Under the pieces are notes generated by a model. It saw only the letters and a list, made by a program, of their open reading frames with translations. It was not told the DNA's origin and did not search any database. The position numbers and the translations under genes were made by a program. A DNA stretch of 64,000 nucleotides. Origin: Burkholderiales bacterium. Lineage in GTDB: Bacteria; Pseudomonadota; Gammaproteobacteria; Burkholderiales; Burkholderiaceae_C. The stretch covers positions 1-64,000 of the forward strand of contig JAFKGE010000032.1 in assembly GCA_017307865.1 (NCBI GenBank), read 5' to 3'. Shown here in pieces: positions 17,810 to 31,107 of the stretch. Positions within the stretch are counted from its first letter, which is position 1. The number at the start of each line of letters is the position of its first letter.

Positions 17810-17884
17810 GCCGCCGTAGTTCAATGGATAGAACGGGCGCCTCCTAAGCGCCAGATGCAGGTTCGATTCCTGCCGGGGGCGCCA
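17810..17884 (+). tRNA. tRNA-Arg (anticodon CCU)
   Basis: This 75-nt cloverleaf has a D arm (TAGTTCAATGGATAGAAC), an anticodon stem-loop GGGCGCCTCCTAAGCGCC with anticodon CCT, a T arm GCAGG-TTCGATT-CCTGC, and an encoded CCA. The acceptor stem pairs GCCGCCG with CGGGGGC, leaving one G-G mismatch at pair 4. Its 3' end is the attachment site of the downstream element. After integration, the 3' half of the tRNA is the copy supplied by the element. Confidence 0.93.
17862..17884 (+). other. attL core of the integrated element (tRNA-Arg 3' end)
   Basis: TTCGATTCCTGCC-GGGGG-CGCCA at the tRNA 3' end recurs at 29116-29137 with one G fewer. The integrase gene starts 174 nt inside this site. This is the classic tRNA 3'-end target of P4-type integrases. 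Confidence 0.85.
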
Positions 17885-17938
17885 TTTATAAATTCCATGA
17901 GCCGCCATATTCGGTCAAAACTCATTCGGAATCAATAA

Positions 17939-17957
17939 GTTAAAGCGGTTTAACCGC
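17939..17957. repeat. Overlapping palindromes between attL and the integrase gene
   Basis: GTTAAA-GCGG-TTTAAC (17939-17954) overlaps GCGGT-TTA-ACCGC (17945-17957). Both are perfect inverted repeats. They lie where an excisionase, AlpA or integrase accessory site would be expected. Confidence 0.45.
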
Positions 17958-18010
17958 CACGTGCCACCACAAGGCACCATTGCAGCGCACCCGATTAGGG
18001 GGCACACTGC

Positions 18011-18057
18011 GGGGGAACAAGGGCTTTTTGCCCTGATTTTGTGGAGATTGTTCCCCC
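18011..18057. promoter_or_regulatory. Long inverted repeat abutting the integrase start codon
   Basis: Perfect 10-bp arms GGGGGAACAA (18011-18020) and TTGTTCCCCC (18048-18057) enclose a small GGGC-TTTTT-GCCC hairpin. The second arm ends directly at the integrase ATG. Related GGGGAAC motifs occur beside attR, so these may be integrase arm sites that also allow autoregulation. Confidence 0.5.
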
Positions 18058-19293
18058 ATGCTGACCGAAATCCAGTGTAGAAATTCGGCCTGTCCGCCCG
18101 ACAAGGCCCGCGCCCGCTTCACCGACGCCGGCGGCCTGTATCTTGAAGTCGCACGGACGGGTTCCAAGCGCTGGTTCTGGAAGTTCCGTCAGAACAACAA
18201 GGAGAAGCGTCTCGCGCTGGGCAGCTACCCCGACACCACGTTGAAGGCCGCCCGCTTCGCCCGTGACGATGCCCGCCGCATCCATGCGAAGGGCGTTGAT
18301 CCGGTGCAGCAGCGCCAGATGGAAAAGGCTACGGCCAGGGTGAACAGCGGCAACACCTATGAGGCCGTCGCCCGAGAGTACCGTCAGCACAAAGAACGCG
18401 AATGGAGCGCCGCCCACGGCGACAAGTGGCTGAGGATGCAGGAACTGAACCTGTTCCCCTACCTGGGCGCCCTGCCGGTAGCGGACATTCCCCCAATGCT
18501 GATGCTGGACACCATCCGCCGCGTGGAAAAGCAAGGCAAGCATGAAACCGCCCACAGCATGCGCCAGTACGCGGGCCAGGTGTTCCGCTATGCCATCGCC
18601 ACGGGACGGGCCACCAACGACCCTACCGCACCGCTCAGGGGCGCCCTGAAGGCCGTGCTGGTGCGCCACATGGCCGCCGTGCTGACCCCGCCCGAAGCCG
18701 GGCACCTGCTGCGCGACATTGACATCTACAAAGGCAGTCCGGTCACGCGCGAGGCGCTGCTGCTGTCGGCCTACACGTTCCAGCGTCCCGGCGAGATTCG
18801 GCAGATGGAATGGGCCGAAGTGGATTTGGAGCAGGCGCTATGGACGATCCCCGCCATCAAGATGAAGCGCCGCAAGCAAGCCAAGATCAACGGGCGCCCG
18901 CACCTTGTCCCGCTGGCCCAGCAGGCCGTCGAGTGCCTGACCCGCCTCAAGCCCCTGACCGGGCACCACAAGTATGTTTTCCCGTCCCTGCTGGGTGAAG
19001 GCCGGTGCATGAGCGAGAACACCGTCAACACCGCGCTGCGCCGCATGGGCTACGACAACGAGACCATGACCGCCCACGGGTTCCGGGCCATGGCGCGCAC
19101 CCTGATCGTCGAGAACCTGGACTTTCCCCCGGACGTGATCGAAGCGCAATTGGCGCACGGCAAAAGCGGGCCGCTGGGCATGGCCTACGACCGGGCGCAA
19201 TACATGGAGCAGCGCCGGGACATGATGGCGAAGTGGGCGGATTACTTGGACAAGCTGCGCGCTGGTGCAGACGTGGTGCAGCTGCGGGCGTGA
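18058..19293 (+). CDS. int: P4-type tyrosine integrase (DUF4102 and catalytic domain)
   Basis: This 411-residue tyrosine recombinase has an N-terminal DUF4102 arm-binding domain (residues 1-90; GGLYLEVARTGSKRWFWKFR, then KEKRLALGSYPDTTL), a core-binding domain (about 97-190) and a C-terminal catalytic domain. The catalytic residues are visible: Arg243 in FQRPGEIR, His340-Gly-Phe-Arg343, His367 in QLAHGKSG, and a Tyr at 377 or 382 in AYDRAQYMEQRR. It integrates the element into the 3' end of the upstream tRNA-Arg. The ATG at 18058 lies at the edge of a long inverted repeat; GGAG at 18043 is a distant ribosome-binding site. Confidence 0.93.
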   Translation: MLTEIQCRNSACPPDKARARFTDAGGLYLEVARTGSKRWFWKFRQNNKEKRLALGSYPDTTLKAARFARDDARRIHAKGVDPVQQRQMEKATARVNSGNTYEAVAREYRQHKEREWSAAHGDKWLRMQELNLFPYLGALPVADIPPMLMLDTIRRVEKQGKHETAHSMRQYAGQVFRYAIATGRATNDPTAPLRGALKAVLVRHMAAVLTPPEAGHLLRDIDIYKGSPVTREALLLSAYTFQRPGEIRQMEWAEVDLEQALWTIPAIKMKRRKQAKINGRPHLVPLAQQAVECLTRLKPLTGHHKYVFPSLLGEGRCMSENTVNTALRRMGYDNETMTAHGFRAMARTLIVENLDFPPDVIEAQLAHGKSGPLGMAYDRAQYMEQRRDMMAKWADYLDKLRAGADVVQLRA

Positions 19294-19394
19294 GAAACCG
19301 GCAGGCCCAGCGCCGGCCTGAGCTGGGCATCAAGGCGACGGCCAGGACGTAGGAGCGCCCTGACCGTCTGACCATCATCAAACTGGAGTTGACA

Positions 19395-19760
19395 ATGGCT
19401 GGAGAAATTATCCCTGCAAGAGAGAACGCGCCTCGCAAGCTGGCGTTCACGCCGATACAGCCCTGGACACCGCCGAAGATGACCAACACCGAGGCGCGGC
19501 GCTTAATCGGAGAACTGCAATGCTGGGTTGAGCAGTTCAACCATCCGGACGCCAGAAAACTGGGCGAGGCGTTGGACGACGTAGAGCGCTTATTTATTCG
19601 TGTATGGACGGAAATTGACGAAGCCCTTAGCCAATTGATCCACGCTGACTATCTGGAAAGTAAAGGCCATCATGCCGCTGCGATTGAAGCGAGGAAGTTT
19701 GCCATGGACTATATGCACCGCTGGCAAGATCGAGGCGGCAAAATCGGCAACGCAGGCTAA
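19395..19760 (+). CDS. Hypothetical protein in the satellite accessory region
   Basis: This 121-residue protein of unknown family is probably soluble. It has a proline-rich start, then an alpha-helical body (EARRLIGELQCWVEQFNHPD, LGEALDDVERLFIRVWTEIDEALSQL). The ATG at 19395 follows GGAG by 6 nt; a TTG two codons earlier is less likely. It lies between int and alpA, where phage satellites usually carry accessory or anti-phage cargo. Nothing in the sequence shows its role. Confidence 0.6.
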   Translation: MAGEIIPARENAPRKLAFTPIQPWTPPKMTNTEARRLIGELQCWVEQFNHPDARKLGEALDDVERLFIRVWTEIDEALSQLIHADYLESKGHHAAAIEARKFAMDYMHRWQDRGGKIGNAG

Positions 19761-19846
19761 CCCATTCGCCAGCCCTAGGCTGATCCCCGAAAACCCGTTT
19801 CCCTGACGGGCTGGGCTGGCACCTTTTCAGGGGCGTGAGGGACGCA

Positions 19847-20347
19847 ATGAAAATCACTGATGATCATTTGATTCTAGAATCAGACGAAGAGATAAGAGAG
19901 TTTGAGAAACTTGTAAATCTAGCCAAAACACTAGAGGACAAAAAAAAGCAGAAAGCCGAACGGGTGTTTTCTCAATTTTTGTCCGGTCAATTACCATATG
20001 AAGGCGATGACTCCGCCGAACAAATTTATGACGCAAACGAATGGGCAAATACCACGGATGCGCTGATTCATGAAAATCTAGACCATTCTAGTCTTGGGTA
20101 TTTTGTCGAATTGGTTTTGGAACACCACGAGAGAGCGTCCCAAGCGGCGCGTGCGCACGCAAGACATGCCGAAAACTACGCGATGCGTAAAGACGTATTT
20201 GATTGGCTCGATAAAAATCCACCCAAGCCCAGAGGCAAAGACGCAGCAGCACAAGCCATCGCCGGCAAGGTTGTCCCCATCTCATTCCGCGCTGCACGCA
20301 AGTGGATAGACGAATGGGAAAAACTACGCTCTACCGGCACAACGTAA
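19847..20347 (+). CDS. Hypothetical AT-rich protein in the satellite accessory region
   Basis: This 166-residue protein of unknown family is probably soluble and helical, with a charged N-terminal region (EEIREFEKLVNLAKTLEDKKKQ). Its base composition is clearly more AT-rich than the rest of the element, which suggests a separate origin as cargo. GAGG stands 6 nt before the ATG at 19847; an in-frame GTG at 19835 is possible. The final codons run into a tandem DNA repeat at 20331-20370. It could be a defence or interference gene, but that is a positional guess. Confidence 0.6.
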   Translation: MKITDDHLILESDEEIREFEKLVNLAKTLEDKKKQKAERVFSQFLSGQLPYEGDDSAEQIYDANEWANTTDALIHENLDHSSLGYFVELVLEHHERASQAARAHARHAENYAMRKDVFDWLDKNPPKPRGKDAAAQAIAGKVVPISFRAARKWIDEWEKLRSTGTT

Positions 20348-20379
20348 TTTCTACCGGCACGCTGTAATTTGTGCCGGTA
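20331..20379. repeat. Tandem 20-bp repeat plus inverted arm upstream of alpA
   Basis: Two adjacent copies of CTACCGGCAC-N3-GTAATTT (20331-20350 and 20351-20370) differ only in three middle bases. GTGCCGGTA (20371-20379) then completes a 9-bp stem with the second copy. It lies about 65 nt before alpA. It may be an operator, a replication iteron or a terminator-like hairpin. Confidence 0.6.
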
Positions 20380-20444
20380 AACCGGCTTCAAATAGATCGG
20401 CAGCGCCCCGACGATAGCACCCGTGTTCTATCACGAGGTGCTAA

Positions 20445-20702
20445 ATGCAACCCAATACCACCCCCGGCGCTCCGAAGAGCCGCCCCCGCCGCATCGCAGT
20501 CCAAACCCTGGACAGCCTCAAAATCCCCGAGGCACTGCTGAAGATTCAGACGGTTGTCGCAGTAACCGGCCTGTCTGAATCGTCCATCCGCCGCAAGGTG
20601 GCCAGCGGCGATTTTCCCGCCCCCGTCAAAGATGGCAAGCGCTGCACCCGCTGGGTTTCGGCCAAAGTCCAAAATTGGCTGCGGGCCAAGGGGGCGCAGT
20701 AA
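20445..20702 (+). CDS. AlpA-like helix-turn-helix regulator
   Basis: This 85-residue small DNA-binding protein of the AlpA/MerR-like excisionase type has the core LLKIQTVVAVTGLSESSIRRKVASGDFPAPVK, then GKRCTRWVSAKVQNWLRAKG. In P4-like elements and Gram-negative PICIs, AlpA proteins activate excision and satellite genes. GAGG lies 6 nt before the ATG. The stop codon overlaps the next gene's start by one base (TAATG), so it leads a coupled three-gene operon. Inverted repeats upstream are candidate binding sites. Confidence 0.85.
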   Translation: MQPNTTPGAPKSRPRRIAVQTLDSLKIPEALLKIQTVVAVTGLSESSIRRKVASGDFPAPVKDGKRCTRWVSAKVQNWLRAKGAQ

Positions 20703-21583
20703 TGGGACGCGGCAAATCTGCCAAAACCCTGCAACTGATCGACGCCAGTCGGCGCATTCTGGAAGAAATCCAGCCGGCTACCGTTCGCGCAGTCTGCTAT
20801 CGCCTGTTCACCGAGGGCCTGATCCCGAACATGGGAAAGAGCGCCACGGGAGGCGTATCCAAACAACTGGTGTACGCGCGCGAAAACGGCCTGATCCCCT
20901 GGGATTGGATCGTGGACGAAACCCGCGAAGCCGAGCGCATCAGTTCATGGGACAACCCCGTCCAAATCCTGCGCGCCACGGTCAACCAATACCGCAAGGA
21001 CTATTGGCAGTTTCAGCGTTACCGGGTTGAAGTGTGGAGCGAGAAGGGCACCGTGCGCGGCACCGTCGCCCCGGTGCTGAACAAGTACGGCGTCACCTTC
21101 CGCGTGATGCACGGCTACGGCAGCGCGACCGCCCTCTACGACGTCGCCCAAGAATCGGTGGAGGTGGACAAACCGCTGATCGTGCTCTACATCGGAGACT
21201 GGGATTGTTCCGGCCTGCACATGTCGGAAATCGACCTGCCCGCCCGCCTGGCACGCTATGGCGGCGAGGCGTCAATCCAGCGTATCGCACTGACCGCCGA
21301 AGACGGGCCGGGCCTGCCATCGTTCCCGGCATCGGACAAAGCCAACGATTCGCGCTACGCATGGTTTGTTGAACGCTACGGTGATCGCTGCTGGGAGGTT
21401 GATGCACTGTCCCCGGTGATCTTGCGCCAGCGCCTGGAGGCCCATATCCGCGCCTACCTGGACACCGACGCATGGGAGCACGCGGTCAAGATCGAGCAAG
21501 CCGAGATCGCATCCATGCGTGAGCACTTCACCGCCATGGAAAGTATTTTGAGTCCTGCCGCGAAATACTCGGGAGGCACCTGA
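20702..21583 (+). CDS. Spo11/topoisomerase VI-A-like Toprim domain protein
   Basis: The 293-residue protein has an N-terminal winged-helix-like part (about 5-75; IQPATVRAVCYRLFTEGLI, then SKQLVYARENGLIPWDWI) and a Toprim-like fold. The expected acidic residues are Glu114 in VEVWSEKGTV and the DxD pair Asp166/Asp168 in LYIGDWDCSGLHMSEIDLPA. This pattern is that of the TopoVI-A/Spo11 superfamily. Tyr33 in VCYRLF is a candidate catalytic tyrosine. Start and stop overlap alpA and the primase-like gene by one base each. A nicking or DNA-end role in replication is plausible but not shown. Confidence 0.65.
   Translation: MGRGKSAKTLQLIDASRRILEEIQPATVRAVCYRLFTEGLIPNMGKSATGGVSKQLVYARENGLIPWDWIVDETREAERISSWDNPVQILRATVNQYRKDYWQFQRYRVEVWSEKGTVRGTVAPVLNKYGVTFRVMHGYGSATALYDVAQESVEVDKPLIVLYIGDWDCSGLHMSEIDLPARLARYGGEASIQRIALTAEDGPGLPSFPASDKANDSRYAWFVERYGDRCWEVDALSPVILRQRLEAHIRAYLDTDAWEHAVKIEQAEIASMREHFTAMESILSPAAKYSGGT
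21542..21569. repeat. 28-bp palindromic repeat, copy A
   Basis: AGTATTTT-N12-GAAATACT lies in the 3' end of the Toprim gene. Its reverse complement shares its first 16 bases (AGTATTTCGCGGCAGG) with copy B at 22713-22740, just after the primase gene. Confidence 0.6.
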
Positions 21584-22713
21584 TGGACGCCCCCATCTTC
21601 GAGCGCATCCCGCCCGAGCTGGCCGGCCTAGACCGCTGGCTACTGTGGCGCGCCGATGGCGGCAAGAAGGTGCCCTACAAGGCCGCAGAGCCGCGCAAGC
21701 GGGCATCCAGCACCGACCCTGCCACCTGGGCCGGGTTTGACGCCACACGGGCCGCCTACAAGCCTGGGCGAGACGCTGGTGTCGGCTTCGCCCTCGTTCC
21801 CGAAGATGGCCTGACCGTGATCGACATTGACGGCAACACCAGCCCCGCCGCCGTGGGCCTGCTGGAAGACGTCGGCTGTCAGTATGTCGAGACGTCGCCC
21901 TCGGGCAACGGCCTGCACGGCTGGGGTTTTTTCGCTGGCGAGCTGCCCCGCAAGAAGGGCATCTACAACGGCATCAACGTCGAGATTTACAACGTCGGGC
22001 GCTACATGAGCGTGACCGGCAACGCGACCCGCTCAGGGCCGTTTTCGCACCTTCACGGCGTGCTCGATTTGTCGCGCAGCATCGGCGGTTCACCAGCAGA
22101 AAAAAAGCCGCCGCCCGCCTGCCCTACACAAGAGACACAAGAATCTCAGGAATCACATGAGACACAGGAATCTCAAGTCATGGGGGGGTTGTGTGGGGGT
22201 GTGGAGCCGGCGCGCTTTTTGCCGACAACGACCGGCAACCGCAACAAGCGGCTGTTCGATCTGGCGCGGCACGTCAAAGCCATCAAGCCCGAGGCCACGA
22301 AGGACGAACTGCGGGCCATCGCGCAGGAGTGGCACGAGCTGGCGCTACCCATCATCGGGACAAAGCCCTTCACCGACACCTGGGGCGATTTTTCGCGCGG
22401 CTGGGAGGCGGTGAAATTCCCCGAAGGGACGCTACTGGCCAAAATCCTGGACAACCTGGACGGCGACCCCATCCCGCCCATGCCCAGCGGCTACGGCGAG
22501 GACGAGGCGCGGCTGATTCGTGTGTGCATTCGCCTGCAACAGCACGCCGGCAACGCGCCGTTCTTCCTGAGCGCGCGCACGGCTGGCGATCTGATCGGCC
22601 TGCACTTCACCAGCGCCAGCAACATGCTTTACGGCCTGGTGGCAGACGGCGTGCTGGAGCTGGTGGAGCGTGGCAAGCGACCCAAGGCCAGTAGCTACCG
22701 CATCGCCTGCTGA
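21583..22713 (+). CDS. Primase-polymerase (AEP)-like replication protein
   Basis: This 376-residue protein has an N-terminal bifunctional primase/polymerase-like domain. Asp81-Ile-Asp83 in VIDIDG, Ser107-GNGLH112, and VEIYNVGRYMSVTG (133-146) match the three archaeo-eukaryotic primase motifs. A low-complexity linker follows (about 175-205, repeats of TQES), then a C-terminal winged-helix-like part (EDEARLIRVCIRLQQHAG). There is no helicase domain, unlike the larger P4 alpha or Pri-Rep proteins. It probably initiates satellite replication. The ATG overlaps the Toprim stop by one base. Confidence 0.75.
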   Translation: MDAPIFERIPPELAGLDRWLLWRADGGKKVPYKAAEPRKRASSTDPATWAGFDATRAAYKPGRDAGVGFALVPEDGLTVIDIDGNTSPAAVGLLEDVGCQYVETSPSGNGLHGWGFFAGELPRKKGIYNGINVEIYNVGRYMSVTGNATRSGPFSHLHGVLDLSRSIGGSPAEKKPPPACPTQETQESQESHETQESQVMGGLCGGVEPARFLPTTTGNRNKRLFDLARHVKAIKPEATKDELRAIAQEWHELALPIIGTKPFTDTWGDFSRGWEAVKFPEGTLLAKILDNLDGDPIPPMPSGYGEDEARLIRVCIRLQQHAGNAPFFLSARTAGDLIGLHFTSASNMLYGLVADGVLELVERGKRPKASSYRIAC

Positions 22714-22740
22714 GTATTTCGCGGCAGGTCACGAAATACG
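22713..22740. repeat. 28-bp palindromic repeat, copy B
   Basis: AGTATTTCG-N10-CGAAATACG begins on the last base of the primase-like gene's stop codon. It shares 16 consecutive bases with the reverse complement of copy A at 21542-21569. The pair brackets the primase gene. Confidence 0.6.
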
Positions 22741-22748
22741 CACCATCC

Positions 22749-22800
22749 CGGCCCCCTCATAACGTGCTGGCACGGTAAACCGCTGGGCCGCCCATTTTTT
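22749..22800 (+). terminator. Possible terminator after the replication operon
   Basis: CGGCCC (from 22749) can pair with GGGCCG (22785-22790) around an internal CGTGC-TG-GCACG hairpin. It is followed by CCCATTTTTT. The long loop makes this weak. Confidence 0.35.
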
Positions 22801-22884
22801 GCATCATGGTCACAATCAATTGGCCCTACTGAGCGTTGCCATGCAACCCGCGCGCGATGGCACGTTTTCGCCACACTGGCAAAT

Positions 22885-22918
22885 AGTATTTGACAATCGC
22901 ATGGATACTGGCTATATA
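22885..22918 (+). promoter_or_regulatory. Sigma-70-type promoter of the head/packaging operon
   Basis: TTGACA (22890-22895), a 17-bp spacer and TATATA (22913-22918) form a near-consensus promoter upstream of the capsid gene. AGTAT (22885-22889) and ATACT (22905-22909) flank the -35 as an inverted pair. They use the same half-sites as the two 28-bp palindromes, so an element regulator may bind here. Confidence 0.65.
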
Positions 22919-22954
22919 TCCAGCACCTAGGACTTTTTGCAAAAACCCCTGACC

Positions 22955-24181
22955 ATGAAACTGAACGACCTGCGCGAAGCCCGCGCCCTGAAAGTGACCG
23001 AAGCCCGCGCCCTCGTTGACGGCAACGCGACGTTGACCGCCGAACAGCAAGCCGCTTTCGACAAGCTGAAGACCGAGATCAAGGCGCTCGAAGCCGACGA
23101 AGCCCGCCAGCAGTTTCTCGAAGACGCCGAACGTCGGGCCGCTGGTGCGCCGGTGGACAAGAAGCAGCGCGAGTTCGAGTCGGGCGTCAACGTCCTGGAC
23201 GCCATCCGCGCGCAGGTCGAGCAGCGCAGCGTTACCGGTGCCCTGGCTGAGTTCCAGCAAGAAGCCAAACGTCAAGGTATCGAGCCCAAGAAAGGCGGCC
23301 TGCTGGTGCCCGCTTCGATCTTCGAGAAGCGCACCACCCAAACCACCACCACGGCCGACAAGATCGTCCCCGACGATTACAAGGCGTCCGAGTTCATCGG
23401 CCTGCTGCGCAACAGCCTGATCGTCCGCAGCCTGGGTGCTCGGGTTCTATCCGGCCTGCGCGGCGACGTGGTGATCCCCAAGCAGACGGCGGCCTCGACG
23501 GCCTACTGGCTGAACGAGGGTGATTCGCTGACCGAGAGCAATCCGACCTTCGACACGATCAGCCTGTCCCCGAAGCACGTCGGAGCCCTGTCGAGCCTGT
23601 CTCGCCAGTTGATCCAGCAAAGCAATCCCGCCATCGAGCAGCTTGTTCGGGACGATTTTGTCCAAGTGGTATCCGCCGCCGTGGACAAGGCCCTGATCCA
23701 CGGCACCGCCGCCGCCAAGCAGCCGGTGGGCATCCTGGGCACCACTGGGGTTCAGACCGGCAGCCTGTCCACCCTGAGCTGGGCCAACCTGCTGGGCCTG
23801 CTGGAAAAGCTGGCCCTGGTGAACGTCACCCCGAACGCGGCATTGATCCATCCCAAGGTGGCAACGAAGCTGGCCAGCACCTTGAAGGACAGCACCGTCG
23901 GAGCCGAGTACCTGCTGACCGGTGGGCGTGTGGCCGGTGTATCCGCCTACAGCACGAACCAGTTGGACGCCAAGACCGGCACCCCCGACAAGGGCCGGCT
24001 GATCCTGGGCGACTTCACGCAACTGGTGATCGGTGAATGGGGCGCGACGGAGATTCTGGCCAACCCCTACGCCGCCACCTACTACGAAGCCGGCGCGGTT
24101 CAGTTGCGCATCCTGCACACCATGGACGCCGCCGTCCGCCACCCCAAGGCGTTCGTCACGGTGGAAGACATCGGCATCTAA
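22955..24181 (+). CDS. HK97-fold major capsid protein
   Basis: This 408-residue protein has an N-terminal coiled-coil scaffold (delta) domain of about 110 residues (LNDLREARALKVTEARALVDG, then AFDKLKTEIKALEADEARQ). The HK97 capsid fold follows (GDVVIPKQTAASTAYWLNEG, LSSLSRQLIQQSNPAIEQLV, and the C-terminal RILHTMDAAVRHPKAFVTVEDIGI). The delta domain is removed by the protease encoded next. ATG at 22955 is preferred; TTG at 22937 preceded by AGGA is an alternative adding six residues. It is first in the packaging operon. Confidence 0.92.
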   Translation: MKLNDLREARALKVTEARALVDGNATLTAEQQAAFDKLKTEIKALEADEARQQFLEDAERRAAGAPVDKKQREFESGVNVLDAIRAQVEQRSVTGALAEFQQEAKRQGIEPKKGGLLVPASIFEKRTTQTTTTADKIVPDDYKASEFIGLLRNSLIVRSLGARVLSGLRGDVVIPKQTAASTAYWLNEGDSLTESNPTFDTISLSPKHVGALSSLSRQLIQQSNPAIEQLVRDDFVQVVSAAVDKALIHGTAAAKQPVGILGTTGVQTGSLSTLSWANLLGLLEKLALVNVTPNAALIHPKVATKLASTLKDSTVGAEYLLTGGRVAGVSAYSTNQLDAKTGTPDKGRLILGDFTQLVIGEWGATEILANPYAATYYEAGAVQLRILHTMDAAVRHPKAFVTVEDIGI

Positions 24182-24191
24182 GGGACAGCGA

Positions 24192-24725
24192 ATGTTGGAA
24201 GTCCGCTCTACTGGCGAGCTGCGCAGCGACGGCAAGAAGCTGACGGGCTACGCCGCGATCTTCAACAGCGAAACCGACCTGGGCGGGTTCGTCGAGGTCA
24301 TCCGCAATGGTGCCTTTCGCAAGTCCCTGGAAAGCGGCTCCAACATTCGCGCCCTGTACCACCATGAAGGCAATGCCCTACTCGGCACCACGCGCAGCAA
24401 AACCTTGAAGCTGCGCGAAGACCCGCACGGCCTGGCCTTCGAGCTGGATCTTCCGTCCACCACGCACGGCAAAGACCTGGCCATCCTCGTTGAACGTGGC
24501 GACGTGGCCGGCTGCTCCTTCGGGTTCCGTGTCCGAGACGGTGGCGACCGCTGGGAGCAAAGAGGGGCGCAACTGGTGCGCGAGCTGCTGGACGTGGAGC
24601 TGAGTGAAGTCACCCTGACCGCCGATCCCGCCTACGCCGATACCAGTGTTGCGCTGCGCACGCGCAAGAACATCATCAACAACGACACCCGCCGCCTGTG
24701 GCTTGAGACTTGTCTATGGGACTGA
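24192..24725 (+). CDS. HK97-family prohead protease
   Basis: This 177-residue serine protease of the phage prohead family matures capsids by cleaving the scaffold domain. The catalytic His (57 or 58, in RALYHHEG) and Ser109 (in DVAGCSFGFRV) are in place, as is ELSEVTLTADPAYADTSV near the C-terminus. AGGGA precedes the ATG at 24192 by 6 nt. It begins 11 nt after the capsid gene and overlaps the portal gene by 10 nt. Capsid then protease then portal is the reverse of the usual phage order. Confidence 0.9.
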   Translation: MLEVRSTGELRSDGKKLTGYAAIFNSETDLGGFVEVIRNGAFRKSLESGSNIRALYHHEGNALLGTTRSKTLKLREDPHGLAFELDLPSTTHGKDLAILVERGDVAGCSFGFRVRDGGDRWEQRGAQLVRELLDVELSEVTLTADPAYADTSVALRTRKNIINNDTRRLWLETCLWD

Positions 24726-25960
24726 TCGAACGCCTGGCCAGCCGCATGGGCTACGAACGTCGGGCGTACAACCCGAACGACACCTGGGCCGCGTTTCAAG
24801 CCCTGCGGACTGGCACCAGTGAGCCCGAGGGAATCAGTGCTGTCTATGCCTGCGTGCAAGCGATCAGCGAGACCGTGGCCAGCCTGCCCCTGATCCTCTT
24901 CAAGCGCGACGGCGAAGACAGAACGAGGGCCAGCGAGCACCCGCTCTACCGTGTGTTGCACGATCAGGCCAACGAGCACCAGACCGCCCTTGAGTTCCGC
25001 GAGCTGCTGCAGGCCAACGTCCTGCTGAGGGGCAATGCCTATGCTCGAATCGAGTTCGACAGCGCCGGGCAAGTATCTGCCCTGTGGCCCATCAACCCCG
25101 ACCGCGTGAGCGTGATTCGCAACGGCGACAAGCTGGCCTACGAATACACCGATGGCGACGGCAAGCTGATCCGCCTGCTGTCTCACGAAGTCCTGCATCT
25201 TCGCCATCGCCTGGGGCCCGACGGTGTGCTGGGCGTGAGCCCCATTCAAGCCGCCCGAGGCGTGATTGACCTGGCGCAGTCGGAGCAAGAGCATGGGCTG
25301 GGGACATTCAACAACGGCACCAAGCTATCCGGTGTGTTGAAGTTCCCCGGCATGTTGAAGCCCGAGCAGCGCATTGCCATCCGCGACAGCTGGGCCAGCC
25401 AACATGCGGGAGGAAGCAATGCCGGCAAGACCGCCATCCTCGAAAGCGGTGTGGAGTTCCAGCAGGTGAGCATGACGCTCGAAGATGCCGAATGGATTGC
25501 AGCGCGGCAATTCTCAGTCGAGGAAGTGGCCCGCCTGTTCCGCGTGCCCCCGACCGTGATCGGTGATCTTCGCCATGGCAACTACAGCAATTCGGTGGAG
25601 ATGGCGAGGCAGTTTGTCACCCTGTCCCTACGCCGGCACCTGGTGGCATGGGAGCAAGCCATTGCATCCAAGCTGCTGACCGAAGCCGGCAGACGAATCT
25701 ACTTTGCCGAGCACCAAGTCGAGGGACTGCTGCGCGGTGATTCAGCGACAAGGGCCTCGTTCTATTCGAGCGGCATCCGAGACGGCTGGATGCTCAGAAG
25801 CGAAGCCAGGAAGCTAGAGAACCTGCCCGCCGTGCAAGGCATCGACAACGCCCCGCTAGGCCCCGCCCCCGCCGCCCCTGGCGACTACCCGAGCAAGCGC
25901 TACGCCAATGCTGCCCGCAAGCCGACCAATCATGAAGACGCTCAAACAACGGCAGATTGA
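24716..25960 (+). CDS. Phage portal protein (HK97 type)
   Basis: This 414-residue portal forms the dodecameric DNA gate at one capsid vertex and the terminase docking site. Family motifs include SAVYACVQAISETVASLPLIL, VLLRGNAYARIEFD, HRLGPDGVLGVSPIQAARG and VARLFRVPPTVIGDLRHGNYSNSVE. The ATG at 24716 lies inside the end of the protease gene; a TTG at 24710 is possible. Its 3' end overlaps the HNH gene by 29 nt. It is full length and intact. Confidence 0.92.
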   Translation: MGLIERLASRMGYERRAYNPNDTWAAFQALRTGTSEPEGISAVYACVQAISETVASLPLILFKRDGEDRTRASEHPLYRVLHDQANEHQTALEFRELLQANVLLRGNAYARIEFDSAGQVSALWPINPDRVSVIRNGDKLAYEYTDGDGKLIRLLSHEVLHLRHRLGPDGVLGVSPIQAARGVIDLAQSEQEHGLGTFNNGTKLSGVLKFPGMLKPEQRIAIRDSWASQHAGGSNAGKTAILESGVEFQQVSMTLEDAEWIAARQFSVEEVARLFRVPPTVIGDLRHGNYSNSVEMARQFVTLSLRRHLVAWEQAIASKLLTEAGRRIYFAEHQVEGLLRGDSATRASFYSSGIRDGWMLRSEARKLENLPAVQGIDNAPLGPAPAAPGDYPSKRYANAARKPTNHEDAQTTAD

Positions 25961-26309
25961 GACGGGCCGCACCCTCGCCCTGAACGGCAAGGCATGGGGC
26001 CTGCTGCGCGCTCGTGTGCTCAATGGTGAACCGCTGTGCCGCATGTGCGCCCCCGCCTGTCTCAGACCGGCTACGGACGTTGACCACATCGACAACGACC
26101 CGACGAACAACAGCATAGACAACCTGCAGCCGCTGTGCCACGAATGCCACAGCAGGAAGACGCAAGCCGACATGGGCAAGGCAGTTTGCTATGGTTGTGA
26201 TAGCAATGGCTGGCCGCTTGACCCGGCAAGTCATTGGCAGAAATCGCCGGCAACCGATTCGCCAGAACCGCCCTGTTCCCTCAATTTCAACGCTAACTCA
26301 CTGCCATGA
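25932..26309 (+). CDS. HNH endonuclease of the packaging module
   Basis: This 125-residue HNH nuclease has zinc ligands Cys36/Cys39 (LCRMC) and Cys69/Cys72 (PLCHECH), with the catalytic Asp51-His52 (DVDHIDNDPT), Asn64 and His73. HNH proteins next to terminase genes are needed for cutting at cos sites in HK97-type phages and cos-packaging satellites, acting with TerL. Its ATG lies within the portal gene, and its stop overlaps terS (ATGA). This suggests the satellite packages unit genomes by a cos mechanism. Confidence 0.9.
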   Translation: MKTLKQRQIETGRTLALNGKAWGLLRARVLNGEPLCRMCAPACLRPATDVDHIDNDPTNNSIDNLQPLCHECHSRKTQADMGKAVCYGCDSNGWPLDPASHWQKSPATDSPEPPCSLNFNANSLP

Positions 26310-26764
26310 AGTCCACTGCCCGCCGCCTGCGCTCCGACAGCGCCCACGCTGCCGCTGAGGCTTACCAGAATGCCGCACAAGCGCCTATCGAGCCGCCCCT
26401 GTGTGTCACCCTGCGCGAGCAAGATCAACCGTTCTGGACGCGCATTGTCGAGTCCAAAGCTAGAAGCACCTGGACGGCCACCGACCTCGTTTCTGCTGCC
26501 CATCTGGCCCGCGCCATGGCCGATATGGAAACGCTGCAGGCGCAACTGGACGTCGAGGGCTACATCGTGGGCGACAAGATCAACCCGACCGCCAAAGCCC
26601 TGGAAATGCTGTCCAAGCGCGTTGTCATGATTGCCCGCGCCGTCCAAGTCCACGCGCTGGCCACGGTGGGCGATGCACGCGACGCCGGCAAGTCGGCCAC
26701 GGCTGAACGCGAAGCACGCGAGCAAGAAGACGATCCGCTACTGCCCAAGCTGTACGTGCTATGA
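26306..26764 (+). CDS. terS: Small terminase subunit
   Basis: This 152-residue protein sits between HNH and the large terminase, where TerS is expected. It has a helical core (TATDLVSAAHLARAMADMETLQAQL), GDKINPTAKALEMLSKRVVMIARAVQVHAL, and an acidic end LPKLYVL, in keeping with the P27-like small-terminase family. TerS recognises the element's own cos or pac site, which makes packaging satellite-specific. Four-base ATGA overlaps couple it to both neighbours. Assignment relies partly on position. Confidence 0.8.
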   Translation: MKSTARRLRSDSAHAAAEAYQNAAQAPIEPPLCVTLREQDQPFWTRIVESKARSTWTATDLVSAAHLARAMADMETLQAQLDVEGYIVGDKINPTAKALEMLSKRVVMIARAVQVHALATVGDARDAGKSATAEREAREQEDDPLLPKLYVL

Positions 26765-28260
26765 CCCGCGCCGAGCTGGTGATCCAGTTCATTGAAAAAT
26801 TCTGCCGCGTGCCCGAGGGCGCACTGGTGGGCAAACCGCTGGTGCTGGCTGAGTTTCAGAAAGACTTCATCCGCGCCGTCTACGACAACGAACACGGCAC
26901 GCGCCGCGCCATCCTGAGCATCGCCCGCAAGAACGGGAAGACCGGCCTGATTGCGGGTTTGCTGCTGGCGCATCTGGTGGGGCCTGAAGCCAAGCCGAAT
27001 GCTCAGATTGTCTCGGGCGCAATGTCGAGGGATCAGGCCGCCCTCGTGTTCAACCTGGCGTCAAAAATGGTGCAGCAGTCCCCCGAGCTGGCAAAGCGGG
27101 TGAGGATCGTCCCCTCGGGCAAAAGGCTGATCGGCCTGCCGCTGAACACCGAATATCGAGCCCTGGCAGCAGACGGCCAGACCGCGCATGGACTATCCCC
27201 CGTGCTGGCAATCCTGGACGAAGCCGGGCAAGTCAGAGGCCCCCGCTCAGACTTCATCGACGCGATTACGACCAGCCAAGGCGCACACGACAACCCGCTG
27301 CTGATCGTCATATCGACGCAAGCGGCAACGGATGCTGATTTGCTGAGTCTGTGGATCGACGATGCTTTGACCGGCGCGGACAAGAAAACCGTCTGCCACC
27401 TTCACGCCGCCCCGAAGGACTGCGAGCTGGTGGACACCGAAGCATGGGCCGCAGCAAACCCCGCCATAGGCCTATTCCGAAGCCTGGAAGACGTGCGGGA
27501 GCAAGCCCAGCAGGCGCAGCGCCTACCCAGTGCCGAGGCCACGTTTCGATGGCTGGTGCTCAATCAGCGGGTATCGGCGGTGAACCCGTTTATCAGTGCC
27601 GACGTGTGGAAGTCCTGCGGCACCGAGCCCGAGCCCTTCGACGGGCCTGTCTTCGGCGGGCTGGATTTGTCGGCAAGGACGGACTTAACCGCCCTGGTGC
27701 TGGTGGGCCAGGTTGAAGGCGTGTGGCACGTCCGCCCGTACTTTTGGACGCCCGAGCAAGGCATTGCAGATAGGTCGAAGCGGGATCGCGTCCCCTATGA
27801 CCTGTGGGCGCAGCAAGGCCACCTACGGACAACCCCCGGCGCTTCGGTGGACTATGAACACCTGGCGAGCGACGTGCTCGAAATCCTGGACGGCCTGGAC
27901 GTGCGTGCTATTGCCTTTGACCGCTGGCGCATGGACGTGCTCAAGAAAGAGCTGGATCGCCTGGGAGCCGATTTACCGCTGGTGCCATGGGGACAAGGCT
28001 TTCAATCAATGTCGCCCGCCCTGGACGCCCTCGAAGCTGAATTGCTCAATGGACGCATGGCCCATGGCAATCACCCGGTGCTGACCATGTGCGCGGCCAA
28101 TGCGGTGATCGAACGAGATCCCGCGGGCAACCGCAAGCTGACGAAAGCCAAGAGCACCGGACGAATCGACGGCCTGCAGGCCCTTGCCATGGCCATGGGC
28201 GCGGCCAGCACCAGCGAAGAAATCCAGACCTATGACTCCGACAGCTTCATGTTCGTTTAA
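26761..28260 (+). CDS. terL: Large terminase subunit
   Basis: This 499-residue packaging motor has an N-terminal ATPase with a variant Walker A SIARKNGKT (53-61) and Walker B VLAILDEAG (148-156), plus motif III VISTQAATD. The C-terminal RNase H-like nuclease begins FGGLDLSARTDLTALV with Asp302. Later acidic residues are in AFDRWRMD and GRIDGLQALAMAMG. This is the Terminase_1 family used by HK97-like phages. It is full length. The 149-nt gap after its stop has no gene. Confidence 0.93.
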   Translation: MTRAELVIQFIEKFCRVPEGALVGKPLVLAEFQKDFIRAVYDNEHGTRRAILSIARKNGKTGLIAGLLLAHLVGPEAKPNAQIVSGAMSRDQAALVFNLASKMVQQSPELAKRVRIVPSGKRLIGLPLNTEYRALAADGQTAHGLSPVLAILDEAGQVRGPRSDFIDAITTSQGAHDNPLLIVISTQAATDADLLSLWIDDALTGADKKTVCHLHAAPKDCELVDTEAWAAANPAIGLFRSLEDVREQAQQAQRLPSAEATFRWLVLNQRVSAVNPFISADVWKSCGTEPEPFDGPVFGGLDLSARTDLTALVLVGQVEGVWHVRPYFWTPEQGIADRSKRDRVPYDLWAQQGHLRTTPGASVDYEHLASDVLEILDGLDVRAIAFDRWRMDVLKKELDRLGADLPLVPWGQGFQSMSPALDALEAELLNGRMAHGNHPVLTMCAANAVIERDPAGNRKLTKAKSTGRIDGLQALAMAMGAASTSEEIQTYDSDSFMFV

Positions 28261-28409
28261 CCCCAGCCGGGAGGGCCGCAAGGAGAGCCCGGACGCGGAT
28301 CAGTCGGACAGTGCCGCGCATTTAGAAAAACCCCGACAGCCGGCAGCGCGGTTTCAACCATCTGGTTCTTTCGCTGCGCGTGGCCGGCACCCATTCATGA
28401 AGGACTGAC

Positions 28410-28679
28410 ATGCCCACACTGACGCAAGCAAAGCAGCATCTTCGGGTTGACCACACCGACGAAGACACCTTAATCGAGGGCCTGATCGACGCCGCGCAGC
28501 AGACCGTGAAGCTGTATCTCAACGTCGAGACGCTGCCCGCCGAAGCGCCGGTGGACATAGCTGTCCTGATGCTGACCGCCGCCCTGTACGAGCAACGCGA
28601 AAGCGTGGTGGATCGTCCCCTGTCGGATAACCACCTGTACGCCCGCCTGCTGGCCCCGTATCGGGCCATGGAGGCGTGA
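28410..28679 (+). CDS. Head-tail connector protein (gp6-like)
   Basis: This 89-residue protein of the phage gp6-like connector family begins MPTLTQAKQHLRVDHTDEDTLIEGLIDAA and has VDIAVLMLTAALYEQRESVV in the middle. The connector forms a ring under the portal and prepares the head for tail joining. GGA lies before the ATG. It overlaps the adaptor gene by 4 nt (GTGA). Its presence in an element without tail genes suggests the heads are made ready for tails supplied by another phage. Confidence 0.85.
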   Translation: MPTLTQAKQHLRVDHTDEDTLIEGLIDAAQQTVKLYLNVETLPAEAPVDIAVLMLTAALYEQRESVVDRPLSDNHLYARLLAPYRAMEA

Positions 28680-28999
28680 TCGTGCGCGCCGGCACCCTAG
28701 ACCAGCGTATCGAGCTGCAAGAGCTTGTAGAGGGCTTTGACGACTACGGCCAGCCCCTGAGCGAATGGCAGACCGTCCTGTCGGCCTGGGCCGCCGTGGA
28801 GCCCCTGACGGGCCGGGAATATCTTGCAGCCATGCAAAACCAGTCCGAGACGACCATGCGCGTGAGGCTTCGCTACAGACCCGGTATCAAGTCCGCCATG
28901 CGCGTGAAGCATGGGGCCCGGCTGTACGGCATTCAATCGGTGATCGACGTGAAGAGCACGGGCCGCGAGCTGGTGCTCATGTGTACGGCCAGCGGGTAA
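28676..28999 (+). CDS. Head-tail adaptor / head closure protein
   Basis: This 107-residue protein of the phage head-tail joining family begins MIVRAGTLDQRIELQELVEGFDDYGQ. It continues with AWAAVEPLTGREYLAAMQNQSETTMRVRLRYR and ends in SVIDVKSTGRELVLMCTASG, a typical small barrel. The GTG start overlaps the connector stop. It is the last gene of the element: no tail completion or tail tube gene follows. This protein would form the interface to the borrowed tail, so it should match the helper's tail connector. Confidence 0.87.
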   Translation: MIVRAGTLDQRIELQELVEGFDDYGQPLSEWQTVLSAWAAVEPLTGREYLAAMQNQSETTMRVRLRYRPGIKSAMRVKHGARLYGIQSVIDVKSTGRELVLMCTASG

Positions 29000-29042
29000 A
29001 CTGGAGTCGAACGAACGGACGCCGGTTCGCGTCCCGATTCGT

Positions 29043-29062
29043 GGGGAACAACACGGGGGAAC
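29043..29062 (+). other. Candidate integrase arm sites near attR
   Basis: TGGGGAACAA and GGGGGAACC lie side by side 55-75 nt inside attR. They match the GGGGGAACAA arms found next to the integrase gene at the other end of the element. Confidence 0.45.
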
Positions 29063-29115
29063 CCTGAAAAACCAAACCGCTGAAACCCAGCATTGATGCG
29101 CCCGTCATAGCTCTT

Positions 29116-29137
29116 TTCGATTCCTGCCGGGGCGCCA
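29116..29137 (+). other. attR core of the integrated element
   Basis: TTCGATTCCTGCC-GGGG-CGCCA repeats the tRNA-Arg 3' end, including CCA, with one G missing relative to attL. It marks the displaced chromosomal tRNA end. Host genes resume with gspF 25 nt later. Confidence 0.85.
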
Positions 29138-29161
29138 CCCACGCTGCCCCGCCCCACGCAC

Positions 29162-30379
29162 GTGCCCGCCTATTCCTTCGAAGCCCTGCAAGCCGACGGC
29201 CAGACCCGCAAGGGCGTGATCGAGGCCGACACGGCGCGCCTGGCGCGCGCGCTGCTGCGCGGGCAGGCGCTGGTGCCGCTGGCGGTGGAGCCGGTGACGG
29301 GGCGCTCCGACAGCCTGCTGACCCGGCCGATCGCCGGCGGGCGCGCCTTCGGCGGCACGCGGCTGGCGATCTTTACGCGCCAGCTCGCCGGGCTGGTGGG
29401 CTCGGGCCTGCCGCTGGAGCGCGCGCTGTCGGCGCTGGCCGACGAGGCCGAGGACGACAAGCAGCGCAACCTGATCGCCGGCCTGCGCGCCGAGGTCAAC
29501 GCCGGCGCCCCGCTGGCGCGCGCCATGGCGCAGCAGCCGCGCGAGTTCTCGCCGGTCTACACGGCGGTGATCGCCGCCGGCGAGCAGGGCGGCCACCTGG
29601 GCGCCGTGCTGGAGCGCCTGGCCGACGACCTGGAAGAGCGCCAGGCGCTCAAGTCCAAGCTGATCGGCGCCGCGCTGTACCCGGCCATCGTCACGCTGGT
29701 GGCGATCGTCATCGTGGTGTTTCTGGTCAGCTACGTGGTGCCGCAGGTGGCCACCGTGTTTGCCGGCACCCAGCACGCGCTGCCGACGCTGACGGTGGCC
29801 ATGCTGGCCATCAGCGCCTTCGTGCGCAACTGGGGTTGGTGGCTGCTGGGCGCCATCGTTTTGATAGCTGCCGGCGCACGCTGGGCGCTGACGATCGGCA
29901 CTTTTCGTCAAAAATTCGACGCCGCCTGGCTGCGCCTGCCGCTGGTCGGGCGGCTGGCGCGCGGCTACAACGCGGCGCGCTTCGGCGCCACGCTGGCCAT
30001 GCTGGCGGGGGCCGGCGTGCCCATCCTGCGCGCGCTGCAGGCCGCCAGCGAAACGCTGAACAACACGGCGATGCGCGCCGACGCCGAGGACGCGCTGGTG
30101 ATGGTGCGCGAGGGCGCGCCGCTGGCGGCGGCGCTGGCGCAGAAAAAGCGCTTTCCGGGCCTCTTGGCCATGTTCGCCCGCTTGGGCGAGCAGACCGGCC
30201 AGCTGCCGCTGATGCTGCAGCGCGCCGCCGTGCAGCTGTCCACCGAGGTGCAGCGCCGCGCCATGCAGCTGGCCACCATCCTGGAGCCGCTGCTGATCGT
30301 CGTCATGGGCGTGGTGGTGATGCTGATCGTGCTGGCCGTGATGCTGCCGATCATCCAGCTCAACCAGTGGGTGAAGTAG
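29162..30379 (+). CDS. gspF: Type II secretion inner membrane protein GspF (or PilC-like)
   Basis: The 405-residue platform protein has two GspF domains (about 68-191 and 272-392; FTRQLAGLVGSGLPLERALSAL and FGATLAMLAGAGVPILRALQAASETL) and membrane helices near 170-190, 220-242 and 370-395. The N-terminus PAYSFEALQADGQTRKGVIEAD is typical of GspF. The start is a GTG at 29162 without an obvious ribosome-binding site. No other gsp gene lies beside it: the upstream neighbour is the integrated element, which may have separated it from an operon. A repeat-like sequence is embedded in the second helix region. Confidence 0.85.
   Translation: MPAYSFEALQADGQTRKGVIEADTARLARALLRGQALVPLAVEPVTGRSDSLLTRPIAGGRAFGGTRLAIFTRQLAGLVGSGLPLERALSALADEAEDDKQRNLIAGLRAEVNAGAPLARAMAQQPREFSPVYTAVIAAGEQGGHLGAVLERLADDLEERQALKSKLIGAALYPAIVTLVAIVIVVFLVSYVVPQVATVFAGTQHALPTLTVAMLAISAFVRNWGWWLLGAIVLIAAGARWALTIGTFRQKFDAAWLRLPLVGRLARGYNAARFGATLAMLAGAGVPILRALQAASETLNNTAMRADAEDALVMVREGAPLAAALAQKKRFPGLLAMFARLGEQTGQLPLMLQRAAVQLSTEVQRRAMQLATILEPLLIVVMGVVVMLIVLAVMLPIIQLNQWVK
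29857..29905 (+). repeat. Dispersed GATAGCTG repeat-like segment, copy 5, within gspF
   Basis: TTTTGATAGCTGCCGGCGC followed by GGGCGCTGACGATCGGC matches the first half of the repeat. It encodes IVLIAAGARWAL in a membrane helix. It may be a remnant or a chance match. Confidence 0.4.
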
Positions 30380-30393
30380 CGCCGGCCGGCGTC

Positions 30394-30413
30394 ATGTAGT
30401 AACATTGCTACAT
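30394..30413. promoter_or_regulatory. Palindromic operator of the toxin-antitoxin operon
   Basis: ATGTAG-N8-CTACAT, palindromic at 16 of 20 positions, stands 21 nt before the antitoxin start in an AT-rich patch. Phd/YefM-type antitoxins repress their own operon at such sites. Confidence 0.55.
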
Positions 30414-30434
30414 TCATCGATTGCGGAGGCTGCC

Positions 30435-30683
30435 ATGCAAACCCTCACCTCGCGCGAATTCAACCAGGACACGGCCCGCGCCAAGCGCGCCGCCAACGAC
30501 GGGCCGGTGTTCATCACCGACCGGGGCAAGCGCGCCTATGTGCTGATCACCAACGACGAGTACGAGCGCCTGACCCGCAAGCGCCAGTCGATCATCGAAG
30601 CGCTGGCCATGCCCGGTGTGGAGGACATCGAGTTCGATCCGCCGCGCATGGGTGACTTCGCGCGCGCGGCCGAGTTCGACTGA
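30435..30683 (+). CDS. Phd/YefM-family antitoxin
   Basis: This 82-residue antitoxin has an N-terminal Phd-type DNA-binding fold (LTSREFNQDTARAKRAANDGPVFITDRGKRAYVLI, then NDEYERL) and a C-terminal tail that would wrap the toxin (EDIEFDPPRMGDFARAAEF). GGAGG precedes the ATG at 30435. It is 4 nt upstream of a PIN toxin gene and follows a palindromic operator. The pair would neutralise the RNase and repress its own transcription. Confidence 0.87.
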   Translation: MQTLTSREFNQDTARAKRAANDGPVFITDRGKRAYVLITNDEYERLTRKRQSIIEALAMPGVEDIEFDPPRMGDFARAAEFD

Positions 30684-30687
30684 ATCC

Positions 30688-31107
30688 ATGTTCCTGCTCG
30701 ACACCAACGTCGTCTCCGATTTGCGTCGCACCGACAAGGCGCCGGCCCCGTTGCTGGCTTGGTCGCGCAGCGTGAATGCGCACGATCTCTACATCTCCTG
30801 CATCACGCTGTTCGAGCTGGAGTTGGGCGTGCGCCTGCGCGAGCGGCGCGACGCAGCGCAAGGCCGTGTGCTGCGACAGTGGCTTGAAACCCGCGTCGTG
30901 CCGGAGTTCGAGGGACGCGTGCTCGACATCGACGCCACCATCGCGCGCCGCTGCGCGGTCATGCATGTGCCCAACCCGGCGCCGGAGCGCGACGCCTGGA
31001 TCGCCGCCACCGCCCTGGTCCACGGCCTGACGGTGGTCAGCCGCAACACACGCGACTTCGCCGCCTGCGGGGCGCAAGTGCTAAACCCCTGGCAAGCGCC
31101 CGTCTGA
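30688..31107 (+). CDS. PIN domain RNase toxin (VapC/FitB-like)
   Basis: This 139-residue PIN nuclease has the acidic metal-binding set Asp5 (FLLDTNVVSDL), Glu43 (TLFELELG), Asp102 (ERDAWIAATA) and Asp123 (SRNTRDF). Such toxins cleave tRNA or rRNA when free of antitoxin. The NVVSDLRR start and SRNTRDFAACGAQVLNPW end match the FitB-like branch. All catalytic residues are intact. It follows the antitoxin by 4 nt. A dispersed repeat starts at its 3' end. Confidence 0.88.
   Translation: MFLLDTNVVSDLRRTDKAPAPLLAWSRSVNAHDLYISCITLFELELGVRLRERRDAAQGRVLRQWLETRVVPEFEGRVLDIDATIARRCAVMHVPNPAPERDAWIAATALVHGLTVVSRNTRDFAACGAQVLNPWQAPV

Follow-up and report, generated by a model that had tools for sequence, protein, structure and literature searches.

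P4-like satellites and classical phage-inducible chromosomal islands (PICIs) carry an integrase and alpA-type regulation, as does the element described here, an 11.3-kb island in the tRNA-Arg gene of a Burkholderiales bacterium. Whereas P4-like and classical PICI satellites use the capsids of a helper phage (PMC10690885), the island encodes its own. Capsid-forming PICIs (cf-PICIs) are stated to measure ~14 kb on average and to come primarily from Enterobacteriaceae, Pasteurella, Morganellaceae and Gram-positive groups (PMC10803314), and three radiations of their capsids have been reported (PMC11389934). Like the island, the Streptomyces satellites MulchRoom and MiniFlayer encode head and packaging genes; according to the account describing them, they lack significant homology to cf-PICIs as well as any homologue of a primase, and their helpers are virulent (PMC10690885). 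The literature that we covered on cf-PICIs and Burkholderiales satellites, which did not include the original cf-PICI paper, held no description of the present family. The window analysed here comprises 64,000 nucleotides (GenBank assembly GCA_017307865.1, contig JAFKGE010000032.1, positions 1 to 64,000) and is contig 44 of the 91 in the 3.9-Mb host genome. Our analysis indicates that the island is very probably a phage satellite that depends on a helper and forms heads of its own, cf-PICI-like in its action and with a capsid lineage of its own.

The island consists of 14 open genes, all on the plus strand, between tRNA-Arg(CCT) (17810-17884, plus strand; identified by ARAGORN), which is the integration target, and a copy of its 3' end, with tamB on the left flank and gspF on the right. 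The head module comprises a major capsid protein of HK97 fold (22955-24181; PF05065, 125.6 bits), an S78 prohead protease (24192-24725; PF04586, 147.5 bits), a portal protein (24710-25960; PF04860, 355.6 bits), an HNH endonuclease (25908-26309; PF01844, phrog_2323), a terminase small subunit (TerS, 26306-26764; phrog_5601, no Pfam match), a terminase large subunit (TerL) of HK97 type (26761-28260; PF20441 and PF03354, 62.5% identical to HK97 TerL), a gp6-like head-tail connector (28410-28679; PF05135, phrog_40) and the head completion/closure protein Hc1 (28676-28999; PF05521, phrog_25). Ahead of it lie a tyrosine integrase of 411 aa (18058-19293; PF13356, PF22022, PF00589), an AlpA-type regulator of 85 aa (20445-20702; PF05930, 39.6 bits), a Toprim-domain protein of 293 aa from the ATG at 20702 (20702-21583; phrog_6247) and a primase-like protein of 376 aa (21583-22713; phrog_1829 at E=8e-25, PDB primase chains at E ~1e-15, no Pfam match). 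Matches to Pfam, PHROGs and PDB thus bear out the integration, AlpA, primase-like, head, packaging and connector genes named in a preliminary description of this DNA, and its statement that tail and lysis genes are absent agrees with our Pfam and PHROGs searches, which found none in the island. The same description gave overlaps of 1-29 nt between intact, co-directional genes; the frames are indeed open and on one strand, but when the longest frames are taken, portal and HNH share 53 nt. The capsid, protease and Toprim starts used here (22955, 24192 and 20702) are the likelier ones, read from the open frames.

The ends of the island are marked by a repeat. Comparing 17810-17960 with 28000-31000, the longest exact repeat is TTCGATTCCTGCCGGGG, found at 17862-17878 (the left attachment, att, core at the tRNA 3' end) and at 29116-29132; when 301 bases from the right flank underwent plain shuffling 500 times, no repeat exceeded 13 bases, against 17 in the real sequence. 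The right att copy (29116-29137, plus strand) continues after these 17 bp into CGCCA, which is preceded by four G's as against five in the tRNA. The tRNA-Arg 3'-end copies and the end at 29137 had therefore been placed correctly in the earlier account, with exact identity limited to 17 bp. A gspF-type match was present in 41/41 genomes, and at 4 of the 22 same-genus gspF loci (L055, L058, L060, L065) the site is empty, with tRNA-Arg(CCT) 36-68 nt ahead of gspF. Four more (L052, L053, L054, L059) have this tRNA within ~1.5 kb of gspF, and at 14/22 it was not found in the fetched stretch. The genome with the closest gspF, G416, has a gap of ~5.4 kb between tRNA-Arg and gspF, and G401 one of ~5.6 kb at the same locus; such gaps beside empty sites in congeners indicate that the insertion site is reused. 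The G416 gap (L094 2113-7310) contains three open reading frames (ORFs) resembling, on visual inspection, a type I restriction-modification set. Just past gspF in the window itself lies a pair of genes for a Phd/YefM antitoxin and a PIN-domain protein (30405-31107). The proposal of a cf-PICI-like satellite in tRNA-Arg accordingly stands: head and packaging genes are present, att repeats bound the island and congeners show the empty site.

As in cf-PICIs, the island has its own capsid, protease, portal and connectors, its own HNH, TerS and TerL, an integrase, an AlpA-type regulator, a primase-like gene and att sequences at a fixed site, with no tail or lysis gene in the island itself or, as far as the PHROG families listed go, in its relatives. 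The island and its bounded relatives (10.2-10.9 kb) fall in the cf-PICI size range, somewhat towards the small side. Our comparison with cf-PICIs rests on one element, that of EDL933 (NZ_CP008957 ~1680329-1694760), which we take to be EcCIEDL933. It resembles the island in having an integrase, a helix-turn-helix (HTH) regulator, head genes and HNH-TerS-TerL, with no tail annotated; its order is integrase, HTH regulator, DUF927 gene, capsid, protease, portal, closure, connector, HNH, TerS, TerL. The neck genes thus lie between portal and HNH in the EDL933 element but after TerL in the island, and the proteins are only 34.5% (portal), 41% (protease) and 27% (TerL) identical. No Rfam match was found in the EDL933 element at E 0.1.

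The phages HK97, HK106 and HK446 share with the island a TerL at 62.5% identity, the TerS-TerL pair and connector and closure genes, but they are full phages with tails, another gene order and distant capsids and portals. An HK97-like prophage unites genes for tail, lysis and lysogeny in a single element, a combination that the island does not show. The island's genes stop with head closure; HK97 continues from there with a gp10-family protein and a tail terminator. Since head and packing genes are present and no tail gene was found, tails are probably borrowed from other phages; and since the set stops before the gp10-family protein and tail terminator, tails and lysis would have to come from a siphophage. 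In the cycle that we propose, the integrase would recombine the tRNA-Arg 3' end, at which att repeats and empty sites are observed, and AlpA, perhaps together with an RNA described below, would control excision and the replication operon. The primase-like and Toprim-domain proteins would serve replication of the island. Judged by their families, capsid, protease and portal would then build an HK97-fold prohead, HNH-TerS-TerL would pack the island's own 11-kb DNA, connector and closure proteins would close the head, and a co-infecting siphophage would supply tails and lysis. Excision, helper induction, packing and tail attachment are steps that we infer.

The similarity of TerL to that of HK97-group phages (62.5-63% identity) also fits another origin, a deletion remnant of an HK97-like prophage stripped of its tail and lysis genes. 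The HK97 order is different, however (TerS-TerL-portal-protease-capsid), and portal and capsid are <60% identical to every matching record among 50,697 phage records, the best listed being 43% and 35%. The same block also recurs at other sites, in some cases with its own ends. Scanning genome contigs for TerL yielded 18 loci, among which those in Stutzerimonas, Pseudoxanthomonas, Luteimonas and a Burkholderiales metagenome-assembled genome (L001-L004) show the order of the window throughout the part that their contigs cover and adjoin tRNA-Thr, tRNA-Val and tRNA-Ala; seven genome loci in all (these four with L080, L081 and L085) keep the head-gene order to the contig limits. TerL matched 44/399 genomes of the order, at >=70% solely G098 and G267 besides the window, both with this head order, and the G267 locus adjoins a tmRNA. 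The preliminary description had suggested a search for the same order at tRNA sites in other Burkholderiales; relatives lie beside tRNA-Thr, -Val, -Ala and tmRNA genes. In IMG/VR we found 129 portal relatives and kept 80. The order capsid-protease-portal-HNH-TerS-TerL of the detected genes was the same in 80/80, with all six core genes detected in 58; neck genes followed TerL in 43/80 and preceded HNH in 2/80, and neck or TerL went undetected in 35/80. Att repeats were found in 4 of 12 relatives tested (14 bp in L003, 17 bp in L081, 25 bp in L163 and 45 bp in L147); elements that are bounded or circular, six in all, span 10.2-11.3 kb.

The head genes are under purifying selection: across seven of them, the ratio of nonsynonymous to synonymous rates (dN/dS) between the window and its relative L106 was 0.08-0.30. 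Tail genes were sought among the relatives by scanning 122 of 205 listed ORFs 5' of the capsid gene, and 88 ORFs past TerL from 31 loci, against PHROGs. No tail or lysis name occurred among the families listed (25 of 62 downstream and 25 of 89 upstream), which include replication, integration, partition, recombination, methyltransferase, transporter and unknown families. Ten ORFs scanned one at a time against PHROGs gave no tail name, nor did the PHROG matches listed for the other ORFs of the seven genome loci (L002 excluded). In one 64-kb contig (L179), a satellite head module is directly followed by minus-strand genes. The preliminary description had named, as the mark of a deletion remnant, close relatives sitting inside full prophages; the outcome was the opposite, and its view of a maintained unit rather than a decayed prophage is upheld by the constant order, the four att-bounded relatives and the dN/dS values. 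With ORFs open and selection maintained, the remnant explanation is largely refuted by the recurring att-bounded relatives, and we regard it as very unlikely.

Heads without tails in a chromosome could also belong to a gene-transfer-agent-like or domesticated cassette whose cargo is host DNA instead of its own, and an HNH-TerS-TerL motor would in principle be able to package such DNA. As a rule, domesticated systems are inherited vertically. The distribution here is patchy, with portal matches in 8/369 class genomes, the window's own included, and elsewhere a full-length identity of <=39% (two short pieces reach 41 and 44%). Together with the integrase, att repeats and primase-like gene, this makes such a cassette highly improbable.

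As to the satellite reading itself, several points weigh against it. First, no helper was seen at home: the two tail families searched, PF10145 and PF13550, and GpA (PF05876) were unmatched in the host genome, the one PF20441 TerL there is the island's, and with these four families no resident siphophage was seen. Second, a cos site was not located in the island, and the att repeat was absent in 8/12 relatives tested, several of which are cut contigs. Third, the negative for tails in relatives covers those 25 of 62 and 25 of 89 families. Lastly, orf2 (123 aa, 19389-19760, plus strand; no Pfam match over cut-off, no PHROG and no PADLOC match) and orf3 (170 aa, 19835-20347, plus strand; a weak phrog_31035 match alone, E=0.002) are unexplained; no PADLOC defence gene was found among six proteins tested, these two included. 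HK106 and HK446 are reported to mobilise the EDL933 cf-PICI, which none of that strain's 17 prophages detectably did (PMC11389934); that no helper resides here is hence no argument against the model. The two ORFs without identity, along with the island's own replication and head genes, would also suit a tailless phage that is self-sufficient, or a phage with tail genes at another place in the genome. No lysis gene was found in the island, PF10145 and PF13550 were not found in the genome, and the connector and closure proteins are of tailed-phage type and therefore imply a tail; we consider this explanation extremely unlikely.

Phylogenies were used to place the parts of the satellite. The portal tree unites 35 satellite rows in a single clade (support 100/98), and this clade, the EDL933 element, L084 and L011 make up a set of 38 (93/93). 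By their capsids, the satellites group with L011 at modest support (83/82), and the EDL933 capsid, the one cf-PICI capsid compared, falls elsewhere. Most satellites sit with phages on the HK97-type branch of the TerL tree, and seven bear another TerL. The EDL933 TerL, like the capsid, lies apart from the satellites; both are on long branches, so the place of the EDL933 rows is unsure. Phage rows L005-L007, L009, L010, L082, L083 and L086-L089 were named by gene order alone, L196 has no annotation, and L011, first labelled phage, reads as satellite-like. The portals form a clade apart from the sampled phages. With a capsid that does not group with that of EDL933 and neck genes after TerL, the island would represent a distinct lineage of the same kind as cf-PICIs. 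Island capsid and portal had no match in E. coli DNA; TerL matched 9/5426 E. coli genomes, and the three of nine inspected were full prophages.

Modules of these satellites have been exchanged. The seven non-HK97-type TerLs point to exchange of the motor, and G384 (L085) has the same head genes with a different TerL. L106 (IMGVR_UViG_3300026288_000014) is 86% identical in DNA to the window over 22931-28696, with a portal at 92-93% and a TerL at 96% identity, but its integrase is 30% identical and its replication genes are different (Toprim_3/DUF7146 and DUF5906-D5). The match begins at 22931, six bases ahead of the longest capsid frame, and the other left-hand genes indicate that integrase and replication part were exchanged. 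The Toprim gene of the window had been described simply as such; the domain is present, and the identity can be refined. Topo VI-A and Mini-A proteins are marked by an N-terminal RxxxY, a Toprim glutamate and DxD, and the Topo VI-A fold. RxxxY, glutamate and DxD are invariant in 16 aligned sequences (L152, L155, L156, L157, L264 and L273 were excluded from the final alignment, L264 and L152 for stops in the coordinates used). A structure model (predicted local distance difference test score 88) had as its best PDB match 1d3y, a Topo VI A subunit (E 6e-4, probability 1.00, but a template modelling score of only 0.34 and a root-mean-square deviation of 17), and by sequence PDB gave no topoisomerase match. 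Motifs and modelled fold together point to a Topo VI-A/Mini-A-like protein. Mini-A proteins are reported from phages (PMC7614492). Relatives in other satellites, such as L265 at 67%, mean that the gene is not peculiar to this copy.

Two structured RNAs lie in the island. The first, int-alpA RNA (RF02996; 19768-19833, plus strand), scored 49.5 bits (gathering cut-off 35.8) and shows covariation across 19 sequences. Eight relatives share a block of 68-100 bp around it at 93-99% identity, a ninth matches at 85% and a tenth over 30 bases, as against ~67-77% or no alignment for other shared DNA upstream of the capsid in the same loci. By folding energy the stretch alone gives no signal (z -1.2). 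The preliminary description reported no repressor, and Pfam and PHROGs found none among the island's proteins, but this covarying RNA lies between int and alpA. It was detected in 83/399 genomes of the order (80 over cut-off) and in 16/89 satellite sources; L106 has none. As a mark of capsid satellites it was rejected: 20 regions checked, some of them truncated, had matches to integrase or AlpA of the window or no match at all, and never one to a head protein. The host genome carries a second copy (G000:C1:8546-8614, L237) with an alpA-like gene and a 986-aa ORF, in another island that is perhaps a satellite. The satellite P4 has a C4 antisense RNA, and our guess, by analogy, is that int-alpA RNA may have a similar role: a C4 antisense RNA (RF01695) lies between int and capsid of a capsid-encoding satellite (L080 15604-15693).

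The second, Proteo-phage-1 RNA (RF03044; 28261-28341, plus strand; 84.2 bits, gathering cut-off 42), lies directly 3' of the TerL stop codon. Compensatory changes occur in 13/17 pairs, including 4/5 of the pseudoknot, and 0/500 shuffles covaried as highly, a control that does not remove relatedness. Rfam found it in 13/13 and 6/10 satellite loci, where L081 and L148 are the same element, and in 0/6 phage loci. A model, R1, built from 19 sequences that recur among its satellite matches, gave 42 matches at E<=0.001 in 41/89 satellite sources and 0/30 phage, prophage and other TerL-bearing loci; L080/L137 and L081/L148 each look like the same element. Besides the window's match, 35 of 40 satellite matches start -3 to +19 nt from the TerL stop and four start 2-5 nt past the neck genes; L125 lies elsewhere. 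A pattern scan of IMG/VR (76 stretches) gave 35 R1-confirmed loci among 71 new ones, some on already sampled contigs. This head family was present in 20 of the 35; among the remaining 15 there are several in which the gene ahead of the RNA was taken, on visual inspection, for capsid, portal or TerS. Among 399 genomes there were four matches over cut-off, one of them (G007) outside any satellite. G007 and the 15 IMG/VR loci without this head family mean that the RNA is not exclusive to satellites, and its candidacy as a satellite-only RNA was rejected, phage-like contigs also carrying it. A cos site is not favoured, as helices and pseudoknot covary; a late-operon or packing RNA is a guess that we hold weakly.

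The head genes also occur on plasmid-like replicons. L117 has a 127-bp exact terminal repeat, as in circular contigs, and a unit of 10,742 bp holding the head module, a serine resolvase and ParA, with no match to the window's integrase. On the 132-kb Acinetobacter plasmid NZ_CP044475 (L338), a cassette of capsid-protease-portal-HNH-unnamed ORF-TerL-connector-closure sits two genes away from repM; the stretch displayed, for which the gene table may be incomplete, has no tail gene. We tentatively raise the possibility, which we do not favour, that one head-and-motor cassette is the mobile unit of a proteobacterial satellite lineage, moving among plasmids and islands with unrelated integrases and replication genes, swapping its terminase and carrying Proteo-phage-1 for packing or late-gene control. 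If so, there would be 'satellite plasmids' travelling in their own heads with borrowed tails. For the family as a whole, the analysis suggests a separate lineage of head-making satellites now in the window's order, Luteimonas, Pseudoxanthomonas, Stutzerimonas and many IMG/VR contigs. It displays terminase and replication swaps, locates in satellites two Rfam families whose role is unclear and, with 129 portal relatives, offers material for testing how satellite heads fit foreign tails.

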